From: Archaeoglobi archaeon
GTDB taxonomy: Archaea; Halobacteriota; Archaeoglobi; Archaeoglobales; Archaeoglobaceae
DNA length: 46,506 nt
Assembly (NCBI GenBank): GCA_029259415.1
Contig: JAPDIW010000045.1
Location: forward strand, 1 to 46,506
Reading direction: 5' to 3'
Below are positions 8,009 to 15,262 of the stretch, in pieces (position 1 is the first letter of the stretch; the number at the start of each line of letters is the position of its first letter). Both the position numbers and the translations under genes were made by a program. The notes under the pieces are model-generated. The model ran no database searches and was not told the origin of the DNA. It saw only the letters and a program-made list of their open reading frames with translations.

Positions 8009-9661
8009 TCATCTCAAACGTTTGTAATGCTTAGCTTTTCTCAAAGCCTCTTCCTTGAACTTTTTCTTTTCGAAATGGAGGTCGAGGCAGTGCTGGGGGG
8101 TTAATTCCAGCTTTTCCCTGATGTCTCTCACGATTCTATCCTTTTCCTCCTTCTCTACGGCATCAGTCAGTACCAGCAGATCGACATCGTTAGCTCTCTC
8201 AGCCTCTCCTCTCGCTAAGCTTCCAACGAGGTAAACTTCGCTGTCATTGTATCTTCTTCCAATCTCGCTCAACACCCTTGGAATCCACTTTTCCCATTCT
8301 CTAAGATTCTTTTCTCTTTCTACCAGTCTTCTGTCAACGTATCTGCCGATTTCTCTTCCTGTAAACCACCTGTAGGTAAACTCGAAGAGGAATGAGGCCA
8401 GTATTAGGGAGAGCATAACCAGCAAGGAGAAGAGATTCTCCTCTGCCATTTTAAGTGCAAGGATAATGAAGGCTGAAAATGCCATCACCGCCCCAACGAA
8501 ACACACGAAAGGATTGGTCTTAACCTTATCCCTGAGTTTGACCGCAGCAAGGTTCACGGCGGCAAATATAAGCAGGAATCCGCCGCTTCCGGCTGTGGCT
8601 ATTGTTTCGAGGTTCGCTGTGGAAGATACAATCATGGAAAGAACTGAGATTACTATTAATCCTTCGTAAGCCTGCTTCCACAGTCTTTTCCCCACAAACT
8701 CAGGAAGCTCTCCAAATTTTGCAACCATGTAGCTTGCTCTAGCAGTGCCATAGAGAGTTGCATTGATTGCTGAGCTTGTTGAGGCGAGTGCAGCAAAGGT
8801 GACGAACCAGAAACCGAGTTGGCCGAGAGACGGCTCTGCTGCGATGGCCAAAGCATAGTCTCTAGCCTCCACAACCTTCTCGTAGGGCAGTGTTCCGACA
8901 GTTATTACGGCTATTAAAACATAAACGGTGATGACAACAGCCACTGATGTGTAGAAAGCCTTCTCAAGAACCTTCGGATGCTCAACGTCGCCACCAGCGT
9001 TGGCAATCAGCTCAAATCCCTCATATGCAAGAAATATAATCATCCCTCCGGCAATGATGCTTGCAGCATCTGCCCAGTTAGAAGGCATAAGCCTCTCTGG
9101 ATTTACAAAGACAATTCCCGCTGCCGAAACGATGACCAAGACTGCGAGCTTGAATGCAACAAGCAAGTCTTCAGTTCTCCCGCTTACAACAGCTCCGAGG
9201 GCGTTTAAAACTGTAAAGAGGATGATAACGAAAGCGATAAAGAAGTCCTTCAAAAATGGGGCTCCAATGCTGTTTGCAGCGTAGCTTCCGAAGGCGTAGG
9301 CGTAGAGAGCAATCATGACAACATAGCTAACCAGGAGAAGGACGTTCAGACCTCCGGAAAGCAAACCTGTTCCGTAAGCCTTAACTATGAACTCTATGGT
9401 TCCACCTTCGCTTGGGAACCTGAGGCTCAGCTTTGCATAGGAGTATGCTGTGATTAACGCTACCAATCCAGCGATGAGAAACGCAATTGGGGCTGAACCC
9501 TTCGCAATCTGCACGCTTAAGCCGAGAACTGCAAATATACCACCACCGATCATTCCTCCTATGCCGATACTAACAGCTTCCCAGAACCCGATTTTCTCTC
9601 GCACTGGGATGAGCTTGAAAAAACAAAATAAAAAGTTACGGTATTTAGCGGCATGTCCCAT
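8009..9661 (-). CDS. APC-family amino-acid permease fused to a nucleotidyltransferase domain
   Basis: Fusion of 550 aa. Residues about 20-430 form an APC-superfamily permease: GFWEAVSIGIGGMIGGGIFA at TM1 is the substrate/ion site of the family, and about twelve hydrophobic segments follow. Residues about 445-550 are cytosolic and carry the polymerase-beta-like nucleotidyltransferase motif GSLARGEAERANDVDLLVL (GS ... D-x-D). Archaeal APC permeases more often end in UspA domains, so this fusion is unusual. The ATG at 9661 has a GGTGAGG site at 9667-9673 and a TATA-like ATATAACA at 9693-9700. An alternative start at the GTG before REKIGFW would remove a 20-residue leader. Nucleotidylation of a transporter partner is possible but unproven. 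Confidence 0.82.
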   Translation of the reverse strand: MGHAAKYRNFLFCFFKLIPVREKIGFWEAVSIGIGGMIGGGIFAVLGLSVQIAKGSAPIAFLIAGLVALITAYSYAKLSLRFPSEGGTIEFIVKAYGTGLLSGGLNVLLLVSYVVMIALYAYAFGSYAANSIGAPFLKDFFIAFVIILFTVLNALGAVVSGRTEDLLVAFKLAVLVIVSAAGIVFVNPERLMPSNWADAASIIAGGMIIFLAYEGFELIANAGGDVEHPKVLEKAFYTSVAVVITVYVLIAVITVGTLPYEKVVEARDYALAIAAEPSLGQLGFWFVTFAALASTSSAINATLYGTARASYMVAKFGELPEFVGKRLWKQAYEGLIVISVLSMIVSSTANLETIATAGSGGFLLIFAAVNLAAVKLRDKVKTNPFVCFVGAVMAFSAFIILALKMAEENLFSLLVMLSLILASFLFEFTYRWFTGREIGRYVDRRLVEREKNLREWEKWIPRVLSEIGRRYNDSEVYLVGSLARGEAERANDVDLLVLTDAVEKEEKDRIVRDIREKLELTPQHCLDLHFEKKKFKEEALRKAKHYKRLR

Positions 9662-10257: not shown

Positions 10258-10509
10258 ATGGGAGAGAAAAGGTCGCGTTTCGAGATTTTCGTTGCCATTT
10301 TGAAAGTAACAGGCAGCGGAGCAAACATGACCAAGATTGTTTATGGTGCGAACATAAACTTCAAAATGGCTCAAAATTACATTGAATACCTTCTCGATAA
10401 AGATTTTCTTGTGCTAACCTCAGAAAATGGGAAAAAGATATACAGCACCACCGAGAAAGGGAGAGATTTTGTAAAAAAATACGGTGAACTGGAAGAGTTA
10501 GCTGAGTAA
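10258..10509 (+). CDS. Small winged-helix regulator (COG3432/ArnR1-like)
   Basis: Single-domain DNA-binding protein, 83 aa. Helices at residues 7-20 (FEIFVAILKVTGSG), 22-35 (NMTKIVYGANINFKMAQNY) and a recognition helix running into YIEYLLDKDFLVLT, then the wing NGKKIYSTTEKGRDFVKKY. This is the archaeal COG3432 winged-helix type. It stands alone behind its own TATA box; the 10021-10257 region upstream is AT-rich with no other visible gene. It and the next tiny gene precede the DUF1102 operon in the same orientation, so local control of that operon is an inference from position. Confidence 0.78.
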   Translation: MGEKRSRFEIFVAILKVTGSGANMTKIVYGANINFKMAQNYIEYLLDKDFLVLTSENGKKIYSTTEKGRDFVKKYGELEELAE

Positions 10510-10577: not shown

Positions 10578-10754
10578 ATGTTAAAAAATATTGACAAAAT
10601 CCTAGAAATGATAAAAGACAAAAGGCTGCCAAAAGAAAAGATATCGCGAAAAGAACTCAATATTTTGCTTGAACTCGGATTGGTAGAAATAAAAGACGGA
10701 GAAATCGTGATTACTGAGTGGGGAGATAAGTTTCTGAACCTTCCTACTGAATAA
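10578..10754 (+). CDS. Mini winged-helix-like protein, 58 aa
   Basis: Tiny basic/acidic protein starting [20 protein letters not shown] and ending [20 protein letters not shown]. The pattern of short helices followed by a two-stranded wing ([17 protein letters not shown]) resembles the C-terminal half of archaeal winged-helix regulators. The reading frame is supported by its own TATA box at leaderless spacing, Lys/Ile/Glu-rich codon use like its neighbours and a clean stop. It may be a dimeric mini-regulator or an antirepressor-like partner of the 83-aa protein. No family name can be given. Confidence 0.6.
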
Positions 10755-10804: not shown

Positions 10805-10814
10805 TTATATATAA
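10805..10814 (+). promoter_or_regulatory. TATA box of the DUF1102 surface-protein operon
   Basis: TTATATATAA, a strong TATA box. The predicted start of transcription is near 10834-10838, giving a leader of about 30 nt, unlike the leaderless genes nearby. The leader contains a ribosome site GAGGTG at 10857-10862. Confidence 0.6.
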
Positions 10815-10835
10815 CATTTTGAACAACATATCTTA

Positions 10836-10850
10836 TCGGCTGAATGCCGA
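10836..10850 (+). other. Small 5'-leader hairpin of the surface-protein mRNA
   Basis: TCGGC-TGAAT-GCCGA is a 5-bp perfect stem at the predicted 5' end of the operon mRNA. It could stabilise an abundant transcript or be a regulator half-site pair. Evidence is only the repeat and its position. Confidence 0.35.
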
Positions 10851-10867
10851 GAAAGTGAGGTGAAAAA

Positions 10868-11467
10868 ATGAGAAAAATGCCATTGGGCATATTGGGAGCA
10901 ATGGTGGCTCTGAGCCTTGTCATTGGTGTAAGCGCTACCTTTAGTGACTACAACGCCGATAGAAGCATACACTGGAACATAACAACTGACGATACGGAAC
11001 TGATAGACCTGAAACCTATTCAGCCCTATGCTTATATTGCTGACAACGGAGAGCTTGTGGTTGACTTCTCGCCTAACAACCCGAATTATCCGGGTTATGG
11101 CGATGGAGTGAGTCCAGCAAGCGAATATAACTTCAACGAGGTTTTTGCAGTGAGCAACCATCTCTGGGAAAACATGCCAATAGTTGTGAGAATTACATCA
11201 TCCAACACGCACGTTGAATTCTACTCACACGAGGGTGGAGTTTATGCGGTGGATGGTGGTGCATTAGCAACGGCTTCAGACAGTGCCAGGGATGATGTGT
11301 GCTTCGTTCTTGGGCCAAATTCAGAGAAGAAGATTGGAATGGATCTTAGCGCTAACGGAGACAGTCCGGGAGACGTGTGGGATTTGACAATGACAGTGAA
11401 GGCCTACAGGCTTGGAACCGAGCCTGCTGAGCTGAGTAACTGTGGACAACCGGTGGTGGTAGAATGA
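10868..11467 (+). CDS. DUF1102 secreted surface protein, paralogue 1 (TasA-like candidate)
   Basis: Exported protein, 199 aa. A hydrophobic signal segment (PLGILGAMVALSLVIGVSA) is followed at once by TFSDYNADRSI, which recalls the A-x-FSD start of mature TasA/camelysin-type fibre proteins cleaved by SipW-like peptidases. A beta-rich body follows with NNPNYPGYGDG (about residue 70), the block that defines this local family, then SPASEYNFNEVFAVSN, resembling the P-G-x-x-y-x-F-x-v-x-N strand of the camelysin fold. Two Cys (C145, C192) may form a disulfide. ATG 10868 has a strong GAGGTG site. It is the first gene of a six-gene operon; its stop overlaps the next start (ATGA). Confidence 0.75.
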   Translation: MRKMPLGILGAMVALSLVIGVSATFSDYNADRSIHWNITTDDTELIDLKPIQPYAYIADNGELVVDFSPNNPNYPGYGDGVSPASEYNFNEVFAVSNHLWENMPIVVRITSSNTHVEFYSHEGGVYAVDGGALATASDSARDDVCFVLGPNSEKKIGMDLSANGDSPGDVWDLTMTVKAYRLGTEPAELSNCGQPVVVE

Positions 11468-11991
11468 AAAAGTTGGCAGGTCTTCTGCTTCTGATTGTTG
11501 GTTTAACGCTGACGATAGGGGCGGGAGCAAACTTCAGGTATTACGAAGCTGAGAGGAGCATAACTGTGAACATTACGTCAGATGACAACGAGTTTATTGA
11601 CCTTACACCATTGCAGCCCTATGCCTACCTGAATAACGGAAAGTTGACTATTGAGATGTCACCCAACAACCCGAATTATCCGGGTTATGGTGACGGAATG
11701 AGCGTCAACACAATATACGTGTTTGAAGAGATGTTCAACGTAAGCAACGAGCTTTGGGAGAATGAAAATGGTGACTTCCCGGTTTGCGTGCAGATATCGA
11801 TAGGCGATGGTGTTGAAGTCTTTGCTGGAGACTACGACAACCCAATTAGCGGTCCGGGAACACAATTGCAGTTTACCGTGTACCATGACGAGCCAGTTCC
11901 AGTTGGATTCATATTCAACAACACCGACAAAGAAATGGGCGCACAACAGGTTCAGATGAGCATTAATGCCGTAGCAGGAGCTTGCGAGTAA
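11464..11991 (+). CDS. DUF1102 secreted surface protein, paralogue 2
   Basis: Exported protein, 175 aa, clearly duplicated from paralogue 1. Signal segment LAGLLLLIVGLTLTIGAGA is followed by NFRYYEAERSITVNIT, then LQPYAYLNNGKLTIEMSPNN and the shared NPNYPGYGDG. FNVSNELWENENGDFPVCVQ matches FAVSNHLWENMPIVVR of paralogue 1, so both share a strand ending in VSN-x-LWEN. Two cysteines (in FPVCVQ and the terminal ACE) differ in position from paralogue 1. It is translationally coupled to paralogue 1 and followed by a 35-nt gap containing a short AT-rich stretch and a GAGGAAAG ribosome site for paralogue 3. Confidence 0.75.
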   Translation: MKKLAGLLLLIVGLTLTIGAGANFRYYEAERSITVNITSDDNEFIDLTPLQPYAYLNNGKLTIEMSPNNPNYPGYGDGMSVNTIYVFEEMFNVSNELWENENGDFPVCVQISIGDGVEVFAGDYDNPISGPGTQLQFTVYHDEPVPVGFIFNNTDKEMGAQQVQMSINAVAGACE

Positions 11992-12026
11992 AGCTCCTCA
12001 AATTTAATTTTTTATGAGGAAAGCAA

Positions 12027-12476
12027 ATGAAAAAAATCATAATTGCGATAATATTACTTCTCATAGCTCTCGGATTGAGGGCTCCGGCCATCTCTGTCAT
12101 GGCTGCAGATACCATTAGCGGAGTTTTGCTTTACTCCACTTCACCCTACGCCAAGAATGAGGGCAATCTGACGATAGACATTACCGAAAACAACCCGAAC
12201 TATCCGGGCTATGGCAATGGCCTGAGTCCGGGTTCAGTTTACAGGTTTGATGGATTGTTAACTATAGAGAACAGCAACGACTTTCCGGTTTGCGTTATAC
12301 TCGAGTCTCAGAGTGATCTGGTAAAATTTTACACTGATGATCAGTCATTGCCAGCAATCAGCTTCACACTCGATGTGAATGAAAGCATGTCTGTGGGTGT
12401 GGAGCTCAACACAGCAGAGCTTGGACTGATGGAGGAGTATTACAGCATTCAGATAATGGAAGGCGGTTGCCAATGA
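12027..12476 (+). CDS. DUF1102 secreted surface protein, paralogue 3 (short form)
   Basis: Exported protein, 149 aa. Signal segment KIIIAIILLLIALGLRAP precedes a body that keeps the family block NNPNYPGYGNGLSPGSVYRF and a strand TIENSNDFPVCVILES, but lacks the FSDY/FRYY start after the signal. The SPGS-x-Y-x-F-x(5)-I-x-N arrangement is the clearest resemblance in the operon to the TasA/camelysin core strand. C-terminal Cys (GGCQ) pairs with FPVC as in paralogue 2. It may be a minor or capping subunit. Its stop overlaps the signal-peptidase start (ATGA). Confidence 0.72.
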   Translation: MKKIIIAIILLLIALGLRAPAISVMAADTISGVLLYSTSPYAKNEGNLTIDITENNPNYPGYGNGLSPGSVYRFDGLLTIENSNDFPVCVILESQSDLVKFYTDDQSLPAISFTLDVNESMSVGVELNTAELGLMEEYYSIQIMEGGCQ

Positions 12477-13495
12477 AACTGTCTGATATTCTCCTGCTCG
12501 TTCTACTGGCGTTCCTGCTGGCATCAACAGCAGGATTCGTGCTTAATAGACCAGTTCTGCTGTCTTACGTAACTTCAGACAGCATGACTCCAACTTTAAA
12601 CAGAGGTGACCTTTTCCTCATAAATCCGCTTGCAGAAGCAAGGCCAAATGATATAGTCGTTTTCAACCTGAACGGCCACTGGACGGTCCACAGAGTTGTG
12701 GCGGAAACTGATGATGGTTACATAACCAAAGGAGACAACAATGTCGCCACAGACCAGCAGGGAGGTACGAACACGGTCAAAAGGGAGAGTGTTGCCGGAG
12801 TGGTTCCAGTTATATTCGGCAGTCCACTAAAAGTTCCTGAAGTTGGAAACTACATTCAGAGACTTTCTGGAACAACAATAAACATACTGCTGGCAATCTT
12901 CATGATAATAGGCGGAGCGACACTGTTGACAGGGAAGGGAGAAGCAAGGAAAAAGGAAAAGAAGGTTTACAGGCTGAGATACAAGACCCTCTACGTTGCG
13001 GTCTCAACAGTGTCGATTGCTATGCTTCTGCTCTCTATACTGGCTACATGGGGGACTGCTGGTTTCAGCTATGCCTCAACGCTGGCAGGGGGTCAGAGAG
13101 AGGGATGGTATCTGCCCGATTCGGAGTTTGATAAGCAGATTGAGATAAAGAACAACGCCCTATTCCCACTCATTTACGTTTTCAGTTTAGAAAGTGATAG
13201 GGCTGAATTGCAGGAATCAAGCAAAATTCTCTCAGCAGGAGAGAAGGCAGAATTGAACGTTCACGTTAAAGTTCCTTCAGAAACGAGAATTTATTATGAC
13301 GAAATAGTGGTTCAGGCTTATCCGCTAATTCTTCCGTCGGAGATCATAATCAGAATGCACAGTTTAAGTCCTCTCCTACCGCTTGCAGCCTTCGCAATGG
13401 AGCTTGCGGTGGTTTTGAGTGTAATCTACTACGCAACAAATGCGGGAGAGGAGGAGGTTATAAGATTGAATAAAAGAAGGAGGTTGAAATTATGA
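12473..13495 (+). CDS. Signal peptidase I (S26B, SipW-type) with extra C-terminal beta domain
   Basis: Membrane signal peptidase, 340 aa from ATG 12473; an in-frame TTG at 12467 is a less likely start. Residues 1-27 form a membrane anchor. The catalytic domain has the Ser box VTSDSMTPTLNRGDL, the ER/archaeal-type His box WTVHRVVAE (His replaces the bacterial Lys) and the Asp box GYITKGDNNVATD. Residues 29-135 therefore suffice as an active S26B enzyme. A second membrane segment (about 140-155) is followed by a third (TLYVAVSTVSIAMLLLSILA), a beta-rich outer domain of about 100 residues (QIEIKNNALFPLIYVFSLES) and a last membrane helix near the C-terminus. Such an appended domain is absent from housekeeping signal peptidases and suggests a dedicated enzyme for the adjacent surface proteins. 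Confidence 0.85.
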   Translation: MKLSDILLLVLLAFLLASTAGFVLNRPVLLSYVTSDSMTPTLNRGDLFLINPLAEARPNDIVVFNLNGHWTVHRVVAETDDGYITKGDNNVATDQQGGTNTVKRESVAGVVPVIFGSPLKVPEVGNYIQRLSGTTINILLAIFMIIGGATLLTGKGEARKKEKKVYRLRYKTLYVAVSTVSIAMLLLSILATWGTAGFSYASTLAGGQREGWYLPDSEFDKQIEIKNNALFPLIYVFSLESDRAELQESSKILSAGEKAELNVHVKVPSETRIYYDEIVVQAYPLILPSEIIIRMHSLSPLLPLAAFAMELAVVLSVIYYATNAGEEEVIRLNKRRRLKL

Positions 13496-14322
13496 GAAAA
13501 TTAATATTAATTCTTGCAGCTACTCTCGTGCTCGTTCTGGGGGCGAGCGGGAACTTCAGAGAGTATTATGGAGCGAGGGGTGTTGCCGTCAGCATCGCGG
13601 ACAACAACAGCTCTTACATAGCATTTGAATGTCCGGAAATAACGCTCTACTTGCAGAGCGGAGAAAGCTCAGGTGTAATTTCGGTTAAAAACAACCTTGG
13701 AGAGGACGCTGAGCTGTATTTCTCCACACCTGATGACATTTTAACATTCACCAATCCAACGTTTCTGTATGCAGGTGAGGAAAAGCTTGTTGAAGCTGAG
13801 TTCACAGGAGGTCATGGTGAATACACAATCCCGATAGATATCGAAGCGTTCTGGGCAAACGGCTCAGCCAGAATTCCTGCGTGCAGCGTTGAGGTTGTTA
13901 ATCCGCTGGTAAAAATAAGCAAGATACTTCTCGAAGGGGACACAGAAGTTCCGCTGTTTGAGAGAGAGGTCTGGAAGTTCAGAATTCTGGTTGAAAGTGA
14001 AATCGGGGATAATTATACAATCCTTGACACAATCCCGGCAGAATTCGAGGTTCTGAGTATAACTTCATCCAGTGGCAGTCACACAGAGCATCATCCTGGA
14101 GTGGGAAGAAGCGGTGTGACTAAAATAGTATGGGAAGTCCACGTTGAAGGGTCAGAATTTATGGACGTTACGGTTGCGACAAAGCTCAACCCTGCAGGGA
14201 AGCAGGAGTTCACAAGTCCGGGAAGTTACAATCTTAACGATGGTGCGGAAATAAAGGGGCTTGGAATAGTCAGCAATCCCATCATCGTTAATGCAGTGAG
14301 AGGTGTTAATAATGGAGAGTAA
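13492..14322 (+). CDS. Secreted DUF1102-like N-terminus with DUF11-like repeat domain
   Basis: Exported protein, 276 aa. The N-terminus (LILILAATLVLVLGAS then GNFREYYGARGVAVSIADNN) repeats the start of paralogues 1 and 2, showing common ancestry, but the NPNYPGYG block is missing. Residues about 50-135 resemble a beta sandwich with Cys 48 and Cys 130. Residues 145-270 (EVWKFRILVESEIGDNYTIL ... FEVLSITSSSG ... SYNLNDGAEIKGL) look like the DUF11/isopeptide-type domains of cell-surface adhesins. It may be an anchor or adhesin of the putative fibre. It overlaps both neighbours (ATGA at its start, 11 bp at its end). Confidence 0.62.
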   Translation: MRKLILILAATLVLVLGASGNFREYYGARGVAVSIADNNSSYIAFECPEITLYLQSGESSGVISVKNNLGEDAELYFSTPDDILTFTNPTFLYAGEEKLVEAEFTGGHGEYTIPIDIEAFWANGSARIPACSVEVVNPLVKISKILLEGDTEVPLFEREVWKFRILVESEIGDNYTILDTIPAEFEVLSITSSSGSHTEHHPGVGRSGVTKIVWEVHVEGSEFMDVTVATKLNPAGKQEFTSPGSYNLNDGAEIKGLGIVSNPIIVNAVRGVNNGE

Positions 14323-15223
14323 GTATAAAAAGATAGCCACGGTGGCGCTGTCAGTCACAGCATCTCTGCTGGCTGTTATGGCTGTTTACGCGTTCTCAAC
14401 GCCATCTGAGAACGTCAAAAATGTTGTTGATGAGGTTGTTGTGCAGAAGGGGAACTTTGAGCATTATGCAACGCTCTCGAATGAATCAATTTACGGCAGG
14501 AAGGCGTCGCTTGATTACTATCCTGAGGGAATAACGGAGAGCATTGAAGGTGTTTACAGCTACACTGTAAGCCCTGAAAAAGTTGGAGAGTATAAAATGG
14601 TTGTAAAGACCACATACTACGTTCAGGAAGGCAGGAGCAAAGTTCAAGTTTGGGAGGAAACGCTGAGTGAAGAGCAGGGAGAATTTGCTGGAACAGTGAG
14701 CATTCCAGTTACGCTGAACTTCGCCGAGATGAACGAAATGCTTAATGCTGTAAAAGATGGCACGGCATTACCGAGACTCACAAGAGTTACGGAAATGATT
14801 TTCACGGCAAACACCGAAAATGAGAGTTTTAACCACACAATTACGCTGAATGAGGGAAGCAGCCTTTACAGCTTCTCAGACACGTCGAAGAGCACAAGAA
14901 CGGTTTACAGCACGAGAGAGGTTACGGAGAACAGCTTTGGCGGTGTCAGTGTGAACAACGCAAGAATACTCTATGCAGCGATGGCCATCTTTACTGCAAT
15001 ACCAGTTGCGGTGATCAACAGAGACTCGATAAGGAGAGAGAAGAAGAACCCGCATGTCGTCAACGGTAGAAGAGAGGGCGGGAAAATAATACTTGAAACT
15101 GAGGAAGACCTCAAAAAAGTTTTCGCAATGTCGGACAGCCCTGTTGTTAGAACAGAGATTGACGGTGTTGCTGTTTACTCGATAGTAGCAGAAGGTGTGG
15201 TTTACGAGTATCGGGAGCCGTAA
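14312..15223 (+). CDS. DUF5305 membrane protein
   Basis: Membrane protein, 303 aa. ATG 14312 has GAGGTG about 7 nt upstream; an in-frame GTG at 14303 is the alternative. An N-terminal membrane segment (VALSVTASLLAVMAVYAF) leads to an extracytoplasmic beta-rich domain of about 190 residues that begins FEHYATLSNESIYGRKA, typical of DUF5305. A second membrane segment (ILYAAMAIFTAIPVAVI) leads to a cytosolic C-terminal domain of about 70 residues (GGKIILETEEDLKKVFAMSD). DUF5305 proteins accompany signal-peptidase/SipW-like genes in several archaea (family knowledge). It is the last gene of the operon and could act as assembly platform or anchor; that is inference. Confidence 0.7.
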   Translation: MESKYKKIATVALSVTASLLAVMAVYAFSTPSENVKNVVDEVVVQKGNFEHYATLSNESIYGRKASLDYYPEGITESIEGVYSYTVSPEKVGEYKMVVKTTYYVQEGRSKVQVWEETLSEEQGEFAGTVSIPVTLNFAEMNEMLNAVKDGTALPRLTRVTEMIFTANTENESFNHTITLNEGSSLYSFSDTSKSTRTVYSTREVTENSFGGVSVNNARILYAAMAIFTAIPVAVINRDSIRREKKNPHVVNGRREGGKIILETEEDLKKVFAMSDSPVVRTEIDGVAVYSIVAEGVVYEYREP

Positions 15224-15225
15224 TT

Positions 15226-15262
15226 TCTTTTTTGTTTTTTATTTTTTAAAAATTTTTTCTAA
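15226..15262 (+). terminator. T-rich terminator after the surface-protein operon
   Basis: Two long T-runs, TTTCTTTTTTGTTTTTTATT and AAAAATTTTTTCT, immediately follow the DUF5305 stop. This is the usual form of intrinsic archaeal termination. Confidence 0.6.

Follow-up and report, generated by a model that had tools for sequence, protein, structure and literature searches.

What does an archaeon build at its surface with three paralogous DUF1102 proteins, a signal peptidase and a DUF5305 membrane protein encoded in one compact cluster? The question is raised by a contig of an Archaeoglobi archaeon (family Archaeoglobaceae; GenBank assembly GCA_029259415.1, contig JAPDIW010000045.1, positions 1 to 46,506, referred to below at its full length as the window), in which positions 10868-15223 form a tight six-gene operon on one strand, with the gene order A1, A2, A3, SP, D and DUF5305. 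The original prediction, made from the sequence alone, took the operon to encode a TasA/SipW-like surface fibre. On the basis of the gene set, its conservation and co-occurrence, fold predictions, the signature of an N-terminal strand and homology to haloarchaeal pilins, all obtained here, the six genes probably make a thin surface fimbria of the donor-strand type. The fibre function is thus well supported (by the operon, the strand and the fold match to 7UEG), while the family label TasA is not: the nearest known system with evidence at sequence level is that of the Taf fimbriae, and the operon is more correctly placed, alongside TasA and not within it, in the DUF1102/Taf branch of the archaeal donor-strand fimbriae, as a Sec-type version from a hyperthermophile. 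The operon comprises the following features:

10868..11467, + strand: A1, DUF1102 paralogue 1, with a signal segment and the mature start TFSDYNADRS; candidate subunit with donor strand and acceptor fold
10937..10990, + strand: A1 mature residues 1-18, TFSDYNADRSIHWNITTD; candidate donor strand
11464..11991, + strand: A2, DUF1102 paralogue 2, with the mature start NFRYYEAERS; candidate fibre subunit
12027..12476, + strand: A3, DUF1102 paralogue 3, in which the F-x2-Y-x-A-x-R start is missing; may be an end subunit that only accepts
12473..13495, + strand: SP, signal peptidase of the ER/archaeal type (Ser37, His73), whose C-terminal membrane helices enclose an extracytoplasmic domain
13492..14322, + strand: D, with a signal and the donor-like N-terminus NFREYYGARG; TapA/TafC-like candidate cap or initiator
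14312..15223, + strand: DUF5305 gene, membrane protein; candidate anchor or platform

Adjacent genes overlap by 4 nucleotides (nt) each at A1/A2, A3/SP and SP/D and by 11 nt at D/DUF5305. The genes had been described as six co-directional, overlapping genes, which holds for the strand but not for A2 and A3, as these are separated by a 35-nt gap. A1, A2 and A3 match the Pfam family DUF1102 (PF06510) with E-values of 2e-58, 1e-56 and 4e-27, respectively (197, 191 and 96 bits; cut-off 22.2), and are thus the three DUF1102 paralogues that had been recognised by eye. The mature proteins begin directly after the signal segment, with TFSDY in A1 and NFRYY in A2, and D has NFREYY; the SPGSVYRF..IEN motif reported for paralogue 3 is likewise present in A3, which lacks the FxxY start. 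The strict motif F-x2-[YF]-x-A-x-R follows the signal segment in 56/66 DUF1102 proteins, 9/20 D proteins and 0/313 control open reading frames, while a looser N-terminal pattern is found in 18/20 D proteins and 14/313 of the control frames. A3 and a few other third paralogues retain the DUF1102 body, with the N-terminal motif absent. In the DUF1102 alignment the first eighteen mature columns are more conserved (2.49 bits) than the remainder (2.10 bits), and conservation alternates, the odd positions 5-15 (2.06-4.21 bits) all exceeding the even positions 4-14 (1.28-1.88 bits); the probability of such a split of twelve values by chance is 1/924. Residues 1-18 of the AlphaFold2 (AF2) model of A2 (pLDDT 87.7) are without secondary structure and unpaired, and in that of A1 (pLDDT 82) residues 1-8 fall below a pLDDT of 50 and residues 1-10 form no strand. 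TasA uses its N-terminal strand as donor strand (PMC9674648), and an N-terminus that is conserved, alternating and, in the models, unpaired is as expected of such a strand. Two further loci (L041:5959-7527 and L042:5695-7263) encode a DUF1102 protein in which a donor-type strand is combined with a Pro/Thr-rich linker, a VWA/integrin-beta-like domain and a NEW3-type domain; these fusions belong to an additional DUF1102 operon that the respective genomes carry, and are likely fibre-tip adhesins.

The operon is real and not a product of chance, because the Archaeoglobi loci examined repeat this gene set with hardly any change of order. Across a survey of 59 Archaeoglobi genomes, DUF1102 is present in 25 (about two fifths), and the order among the fetched loci is A-A-(A)-SP-D-(DUF5305) with small variations, D preceding SP in L041 and L042. 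A SipW-type peptidase gene lies next to the DUF1102 genes in the window, as it does in almost every locus examined, the only locus without SP being L058, which is cut off by a contig end. DUF5305 is encoded in 25/25 genomes with DUF1102 versus 3/34 genomes without it (Fisher 1e-13), and D in 23/25 (some copies short or decayed) versus 0/34, although the genomes are related, so that co-occurrence p-values overstate their independence. The co-occurrence of DUF1102, peptidase and DUF5305 in other genomes, on which the original prediction had been staked, was thus found. Furthermore, presence is scattered within genera, which argues for the operon being a unit gained and lost together.

Comparison of the predicted folds with the PDB using Foldseek gave the same best match for the A1 and A2 models, namely the bundling pilin of Pyrobaculum calidifontis (7UEG; probability 1.00; E=7e-5 for A1 and 1.3e-3 for A2). 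This pilin, AbpA, forms a TasA-like donor-strand fibre in a hyperthermophile (PMC9674648). Next after 7UEG stand FimA entries for A1, while for A2 the Sulfolobus 0406 thread (7PNB) is followed by CfaB, FimG with a donor-strand peptide and Csu, among others. No TasA structure occurs in the top 50 Foldseek matches of either model, so that the structure search proposed at the outset led to the TasA-like AbpA but not to TasA itself. Both models are beta-rich with the N-terminal 10-18 residues unpaired, and a fold unrelated to TasA, which would have spoken against a fibre of this kind, was not encountered. The two models share most of their alignment and are not fully independent.

At the level of sequence, a closer relation is found in the haloarchaea. 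DUF1102 is also present in haloarchaeal-type genomes, and the Archaeoglobales and haloarchaeal DUF1102 profiles align over 172 columns (hhalign E=1e-24), as members of one homologous subunit family. The haloarchaeal profile matches the solved structure 9P0A, a 'Pilin', over its full length (E=1e-28), and the Archaeoglobales profile on its own matches it with E=0.04 over the signal, the N-terminal strand and the first half. The NCBIfam release of 2026 holds the fimbrial families TafA, TafC, TafE and TafF; 17/18 of the haloarchaeal DUF1102 proteins match TafE and fourteen match TafA. Three Taf loci (L098-L100) encode TafA, TafE, TafF and TafC above cut-off and also contain DUF5305 and the same peptidase, which matches the SP profile with E=2e-83; the alignment of the TafC-type profile with D (E=9e-12) covers the signal, the N-terminal strand and the first domain. 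Because the Taf loci hold the same SP and DUF5305 and TafC aligns with D, the two gene sets can be matched component for component, with A1/A2 as the equivalents of TafA/TafE, D of TafC, SP of the peptidase in the Taf loci and DUF5305 of its namesake. The pairing of A3 with TafF is no more than suggested by the absence of the motif.

The likeness extends to detail. Haloarchaeal DUF1102-type subunits start with GAF-x2-V-x-A-x-R, TafC has a similar start before another domain, the Taf-locus signal peptidase has the same C-terminal extension as SP, and DUF5305 is common to both systems. The systems differ in gene order and in one domain, which is LamG-type in TafC and DUF11-like in D, while TafF is long with predicted C-terminal membrane helices and A3 is short. 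Both the LamG-type domain of TafC and the VWA fusions described above are as expected of adhesive tips. The Taf system, which we take to be the 'tafi' (Tat-fimbriae) of Haloarcula hispanica, is said to be Tat-dependent, as reported by Galeva et al., whereas the Archaeoglobus proteins are without a twin-arginine signal: no RR is found in the starts of A1 (MRKMPLG), A2 (MKKLAG), A3 (MKKIII) or D (MRKLIL). Since this motif is absent, the Archaeoglobus operon would represent a Sec-type version of a Taf-like system.

Several points weigh against a donor-strand fimbria. The TM-scores to 7UEG are only 0.36-0.46 and no sequence match to AbpA was found; the fold relation therefore rests on the Foldseek probability and the company of hits, not on a tight superposition. 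The acceptor groove and the strand exchange are putative, the models being of single chains, and the link to 9P0A, whose sequence is of the haloarchaeal type, is one of sequence profiles. A1, A2, A3 and D of the window reach none of the NCBIfam models TafA, TafC, TafE and TafF, and a search of the window's own genome with the TafA model gave no match; Archaeoglobales relatives match Taf models weakly and under cut-off (TafA 6.5e-6, TafF 2.6e-5, and TafC 1.3e-6 for relatives of D). Finally, the fibre in Archaeoglobus is predicted from genes, profiles and models. An alternative is that A1-A3 and D are ordinary secreted or membrane-anchored surface proteins, e.g. lectin-like or cell-envelope proteins, which are matured by a dedicated peptidase and do not polymerise; beta-sandwiches are common among lectins and adhesins, weak lower Foldseek matches include yeast flocculins and GOLD domains, and the fibre is a prediction. 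This explanation is nevertheless unlikely, given that both models have mainly donor-strand pilins at the head of their fold matches, that a monomer would have no obvious use for an N-terminus that is conserved yet unstructured, and that one homologue is a solved pilin and others are fimbrial proteins of the Taf system.

That the DUF1102 proteins are true members of the TasA/camelysin family (Peptidase_M73) is very improbable. The layout is shared, with a signal, an F-S-D start, a PG-x-F-x-I-x-N type motif and an adjoining SipW-like peptidase, and the best fold match is the TasA-like AbpA. However, against the Pfam model Peptidase_M73 (PF12389) A1 scores 12.2 bits where the cut-off is 22.5 (E=0.16, over the signal and N-terminus), A2 and A3 give no match, and only 1/70 homologues matches, at 0.093. 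Alignment of DUF1102 with the M73 proteins of Archaeoglobales using hhalign, a profile comparison of the kind that had been proposed with the original prediction, covers only 38 C-terminal columns (probability 49.5), with no full-length likeness. Membership of TasA/Peptidase_M73, as the title of the original prediction suggests it, is thus not borne out by Pfam, hhalign or a profile search of the PDB, and is largely refuted by sequence. True M73 proteins do occur in this order: some Archaeoglobales carry a separate M73 operon, of which 15/15 aligned members match PF12389 and whose proteins match the TasA structures 5OF1/8AUR at 3e-7. No such operon is found in the window's genome.

These M73 operons (L069 in genome G001, L070 in G004, L071, L072 and L073) encode two to four M73 proteins, one or two signal peptidases and DUF5305; in L069 and L070 a protease gene of subtilisin-type appearance (by eye) follows, in two frames in L069. 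All those examined end in the signal peptidase and DUF5305, and this DUF5305 is homologous to that of the DUF1102 operon (hhalign E=4e-18). The two operon types are therefore alike in combining multi-copy fibre proteins with a peptidase and DUF5305, and differ in that the subunits of one belong to PF12389. That the same pair of SP and DUF5305 serves two subunit families is the strongest argument that the DUF1102 system works like TasA without being TasA. The Bacillus system, in which the operon is tapA-sipW-tasA without DUF5305 (PMC9674648), resembles the present one in its operon logic, the F-S-D-type mature N-terminus and the SipW-type peptidase, and includes in TapA an immunoglobulin (Ig)-fold partner that only donates a strand (PMC10151520), to which D is comparable; it differs in that DUF1102 is not M73 by sequence. 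Least probable of all is a lattice or sheath (S-layer-like or a cannula-like tube) formed by the same strand exchange, since, while several paralogues could fill a lattice and the 9BAB 'Hyper2 tube' among the A1 Foldseek matches indicates that the fold class can build tubes, that match reaches only E=0.012 and the closest homologues are annotated as pilin or fimbrial proteins. A type IV pilus or archaellum was also considered and rejected, as genes for an assembly ATPase or a platform are missing from the operon and its signal segments resemble ordinary signal peptides.

The remaining proteins of the operon accord with a donor-strand fimbria. D of the window has no family match of its own, while 12/19 aligned D orthologues match DUF11; the fourth protein had been read as sharing its N-terminus with the DUF1102 proteins and carrying a DUF11-like domain, and both features are upheld. 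Its layout is a donor-like strand, a domain bracketed by the near-invariant Cys47 and Cys131, and then the DUF11-like domain, and in its N-terminal part the D profile is similar to the N-termini of DUF1102 proteins (best match 1e-9). TapA combines a complete Ig fold with an N-terminal strand that is unstructured, and its part is limited to starting a filament (PMC10151520); D resembles it in plan and is, by analogy, a candidate cap or initiator. A D-type remnant with two stop codons occurs in another genome (G040 C59:56800-57168), possibly a case of decay.

SP matches TIGR02228 (63.2 bits; cut-off 51.85) and SEC11 (E=2e-14), while the match to the SipW model (1.5e-6) falls below cut-off. Ser37 and His73, invariant in 32 homologues, confirm the earlier assignment to the S26B (ER/archaeal) peptidases with His in place of Lys. 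This replacement was rejected as a special feature, the Ser-His pair being normal for signal peptidases of archaea and of the ER type. Since the only other signal peptidase match in the genome is weaker and shorter, SP probably does not serve as the housekeeping enzyme. Beyond the catalytic part, the hydrophobic segments outline two membrane helices, approximately 110 extracytoplasmic residues and a last helix, an extension conserved into the haloarchaea; a holding or hand-over role for it would be a guess. In a related locus (L057:5706-6723, genome G025) the peptidase gene is split in two frames, which may represent decay. The DUF5305 protein of the window falls below the cut-off of the Pfam model PF17231 (27.5 bits against 29; E=2.6e-6), but its identification as a DUF5305 membrane protein is supported by its alignment with the profile of haloarchaeal DUF5305 proteins (hhalign E=3e-12), one of which matches PF17231 at 3e-44. 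Helices at approximately 8-26 and 217-235 flank an outside domain and are accompanied by a conserved inner tail, a topology that would suit a candidate membrane anchor or platform.

A mechanism can be proposed on these grounds, in which the export route, cleavage by SP, strand exchange, polymerisation, the roles of D, A3 and DUF5305 and a function in adhesion or biofilm formation are all putative. A1, A2 and D would be exported via Sec with a signal peptide, and the adjacent SP would cleave just before the F and free the N-terminal strand F-x2-Y-x-A-x-R-x-[VI]-x-V-x-[VI]. The freed strand would insert into the next subunit and complete its beta-sandwich (donor-strand complementation), chaining A1 and A2 into a fibre. 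D, in which the strand is followed by other Ig-like domains, would serve as initiator or cap in the manner of TapA or the haloarchaeal TafC, A3, with a DUF1102 body and no strand, may close the opposite end, and DUF5305 and the extra domain of SP may hold the growing fibre at the membrane. A bolder version is tentative and on balance doubtful: the N-termini would reflect a complete division of labour (D donating only, as initiator or tip; A1/A2 donating and accepting, as shaft; A3 accepting only, as terminator), SP would itself, by way of its extracytoplasmic domain, be the assembly platform, with cleavage and strand hand-over as one step, and SP and DUF5305 would constitute a general archaeal donor-strand fibre machine for DUF1102 and TasA-type subunits, two families that differ in sequence.

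The elements flanking the operon are as follows:

10258..10509, + strand: winged-helix HTH_45 gene (HTH_45 E=2e-24), upstream of the operon; candidate regulator
10805..10814, + strand: TATA-like promoter element TTATATATAA, approximately 53 nt before A1; sequence pattern only
~15226..15262, + strand: T-rich stretch after the last gene; candidate terminator, sequence pattern only

The strong TATA box and T-rich terminator first described are thus present as stretches, but are pattern readings only. A similar HTH_45-type gene occurs upstream of A1 in several relatives, and the gene at 10258-10509 is a candidate regulator of the operon, a role it may share with a short open reading frame (10578-10754; 58 amino acids) directly upstream of the operon, which has a sub-threshold winged-helix likeness (HTH_45 E=0.0009). 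In the Haloarcula-type Taf locus L098, a DUF7344 gene, probably also of the winged-helix type, is located between TafA and TafC, in a position comparable to that of the HTH gene of the window. Further upstream, on the minus strand, positions 8009-9661 encode a 550-amino-acid, amino-acid-permease-like protein with a C-terminus that is nucleotidyltransferase-like by eye (LVGSLARGEAERANDVDLLVLTD), an unusual fusion.

If the proposed reading is correct, it would provide a function for DUF1102 and DUF5305 in Archaeoglobales, families which are labelled 'function unknown', and would join the Taf fimbriae, the TasA-type operons and the Pyrobaculum pili by way of their shared module of peptidase and DUF5305. 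A six-gene, hyperthermophilic kit in which donor-only, donor-acceptor and acceptor-only parts can be told apart would also allow the assembly and anchoring of donor-strand fibres in the absence of a chaperone-usher pathway to be studied in vitro. For Archaeoglobus itself, the operon would supply a molecular candidate for surface attachment.

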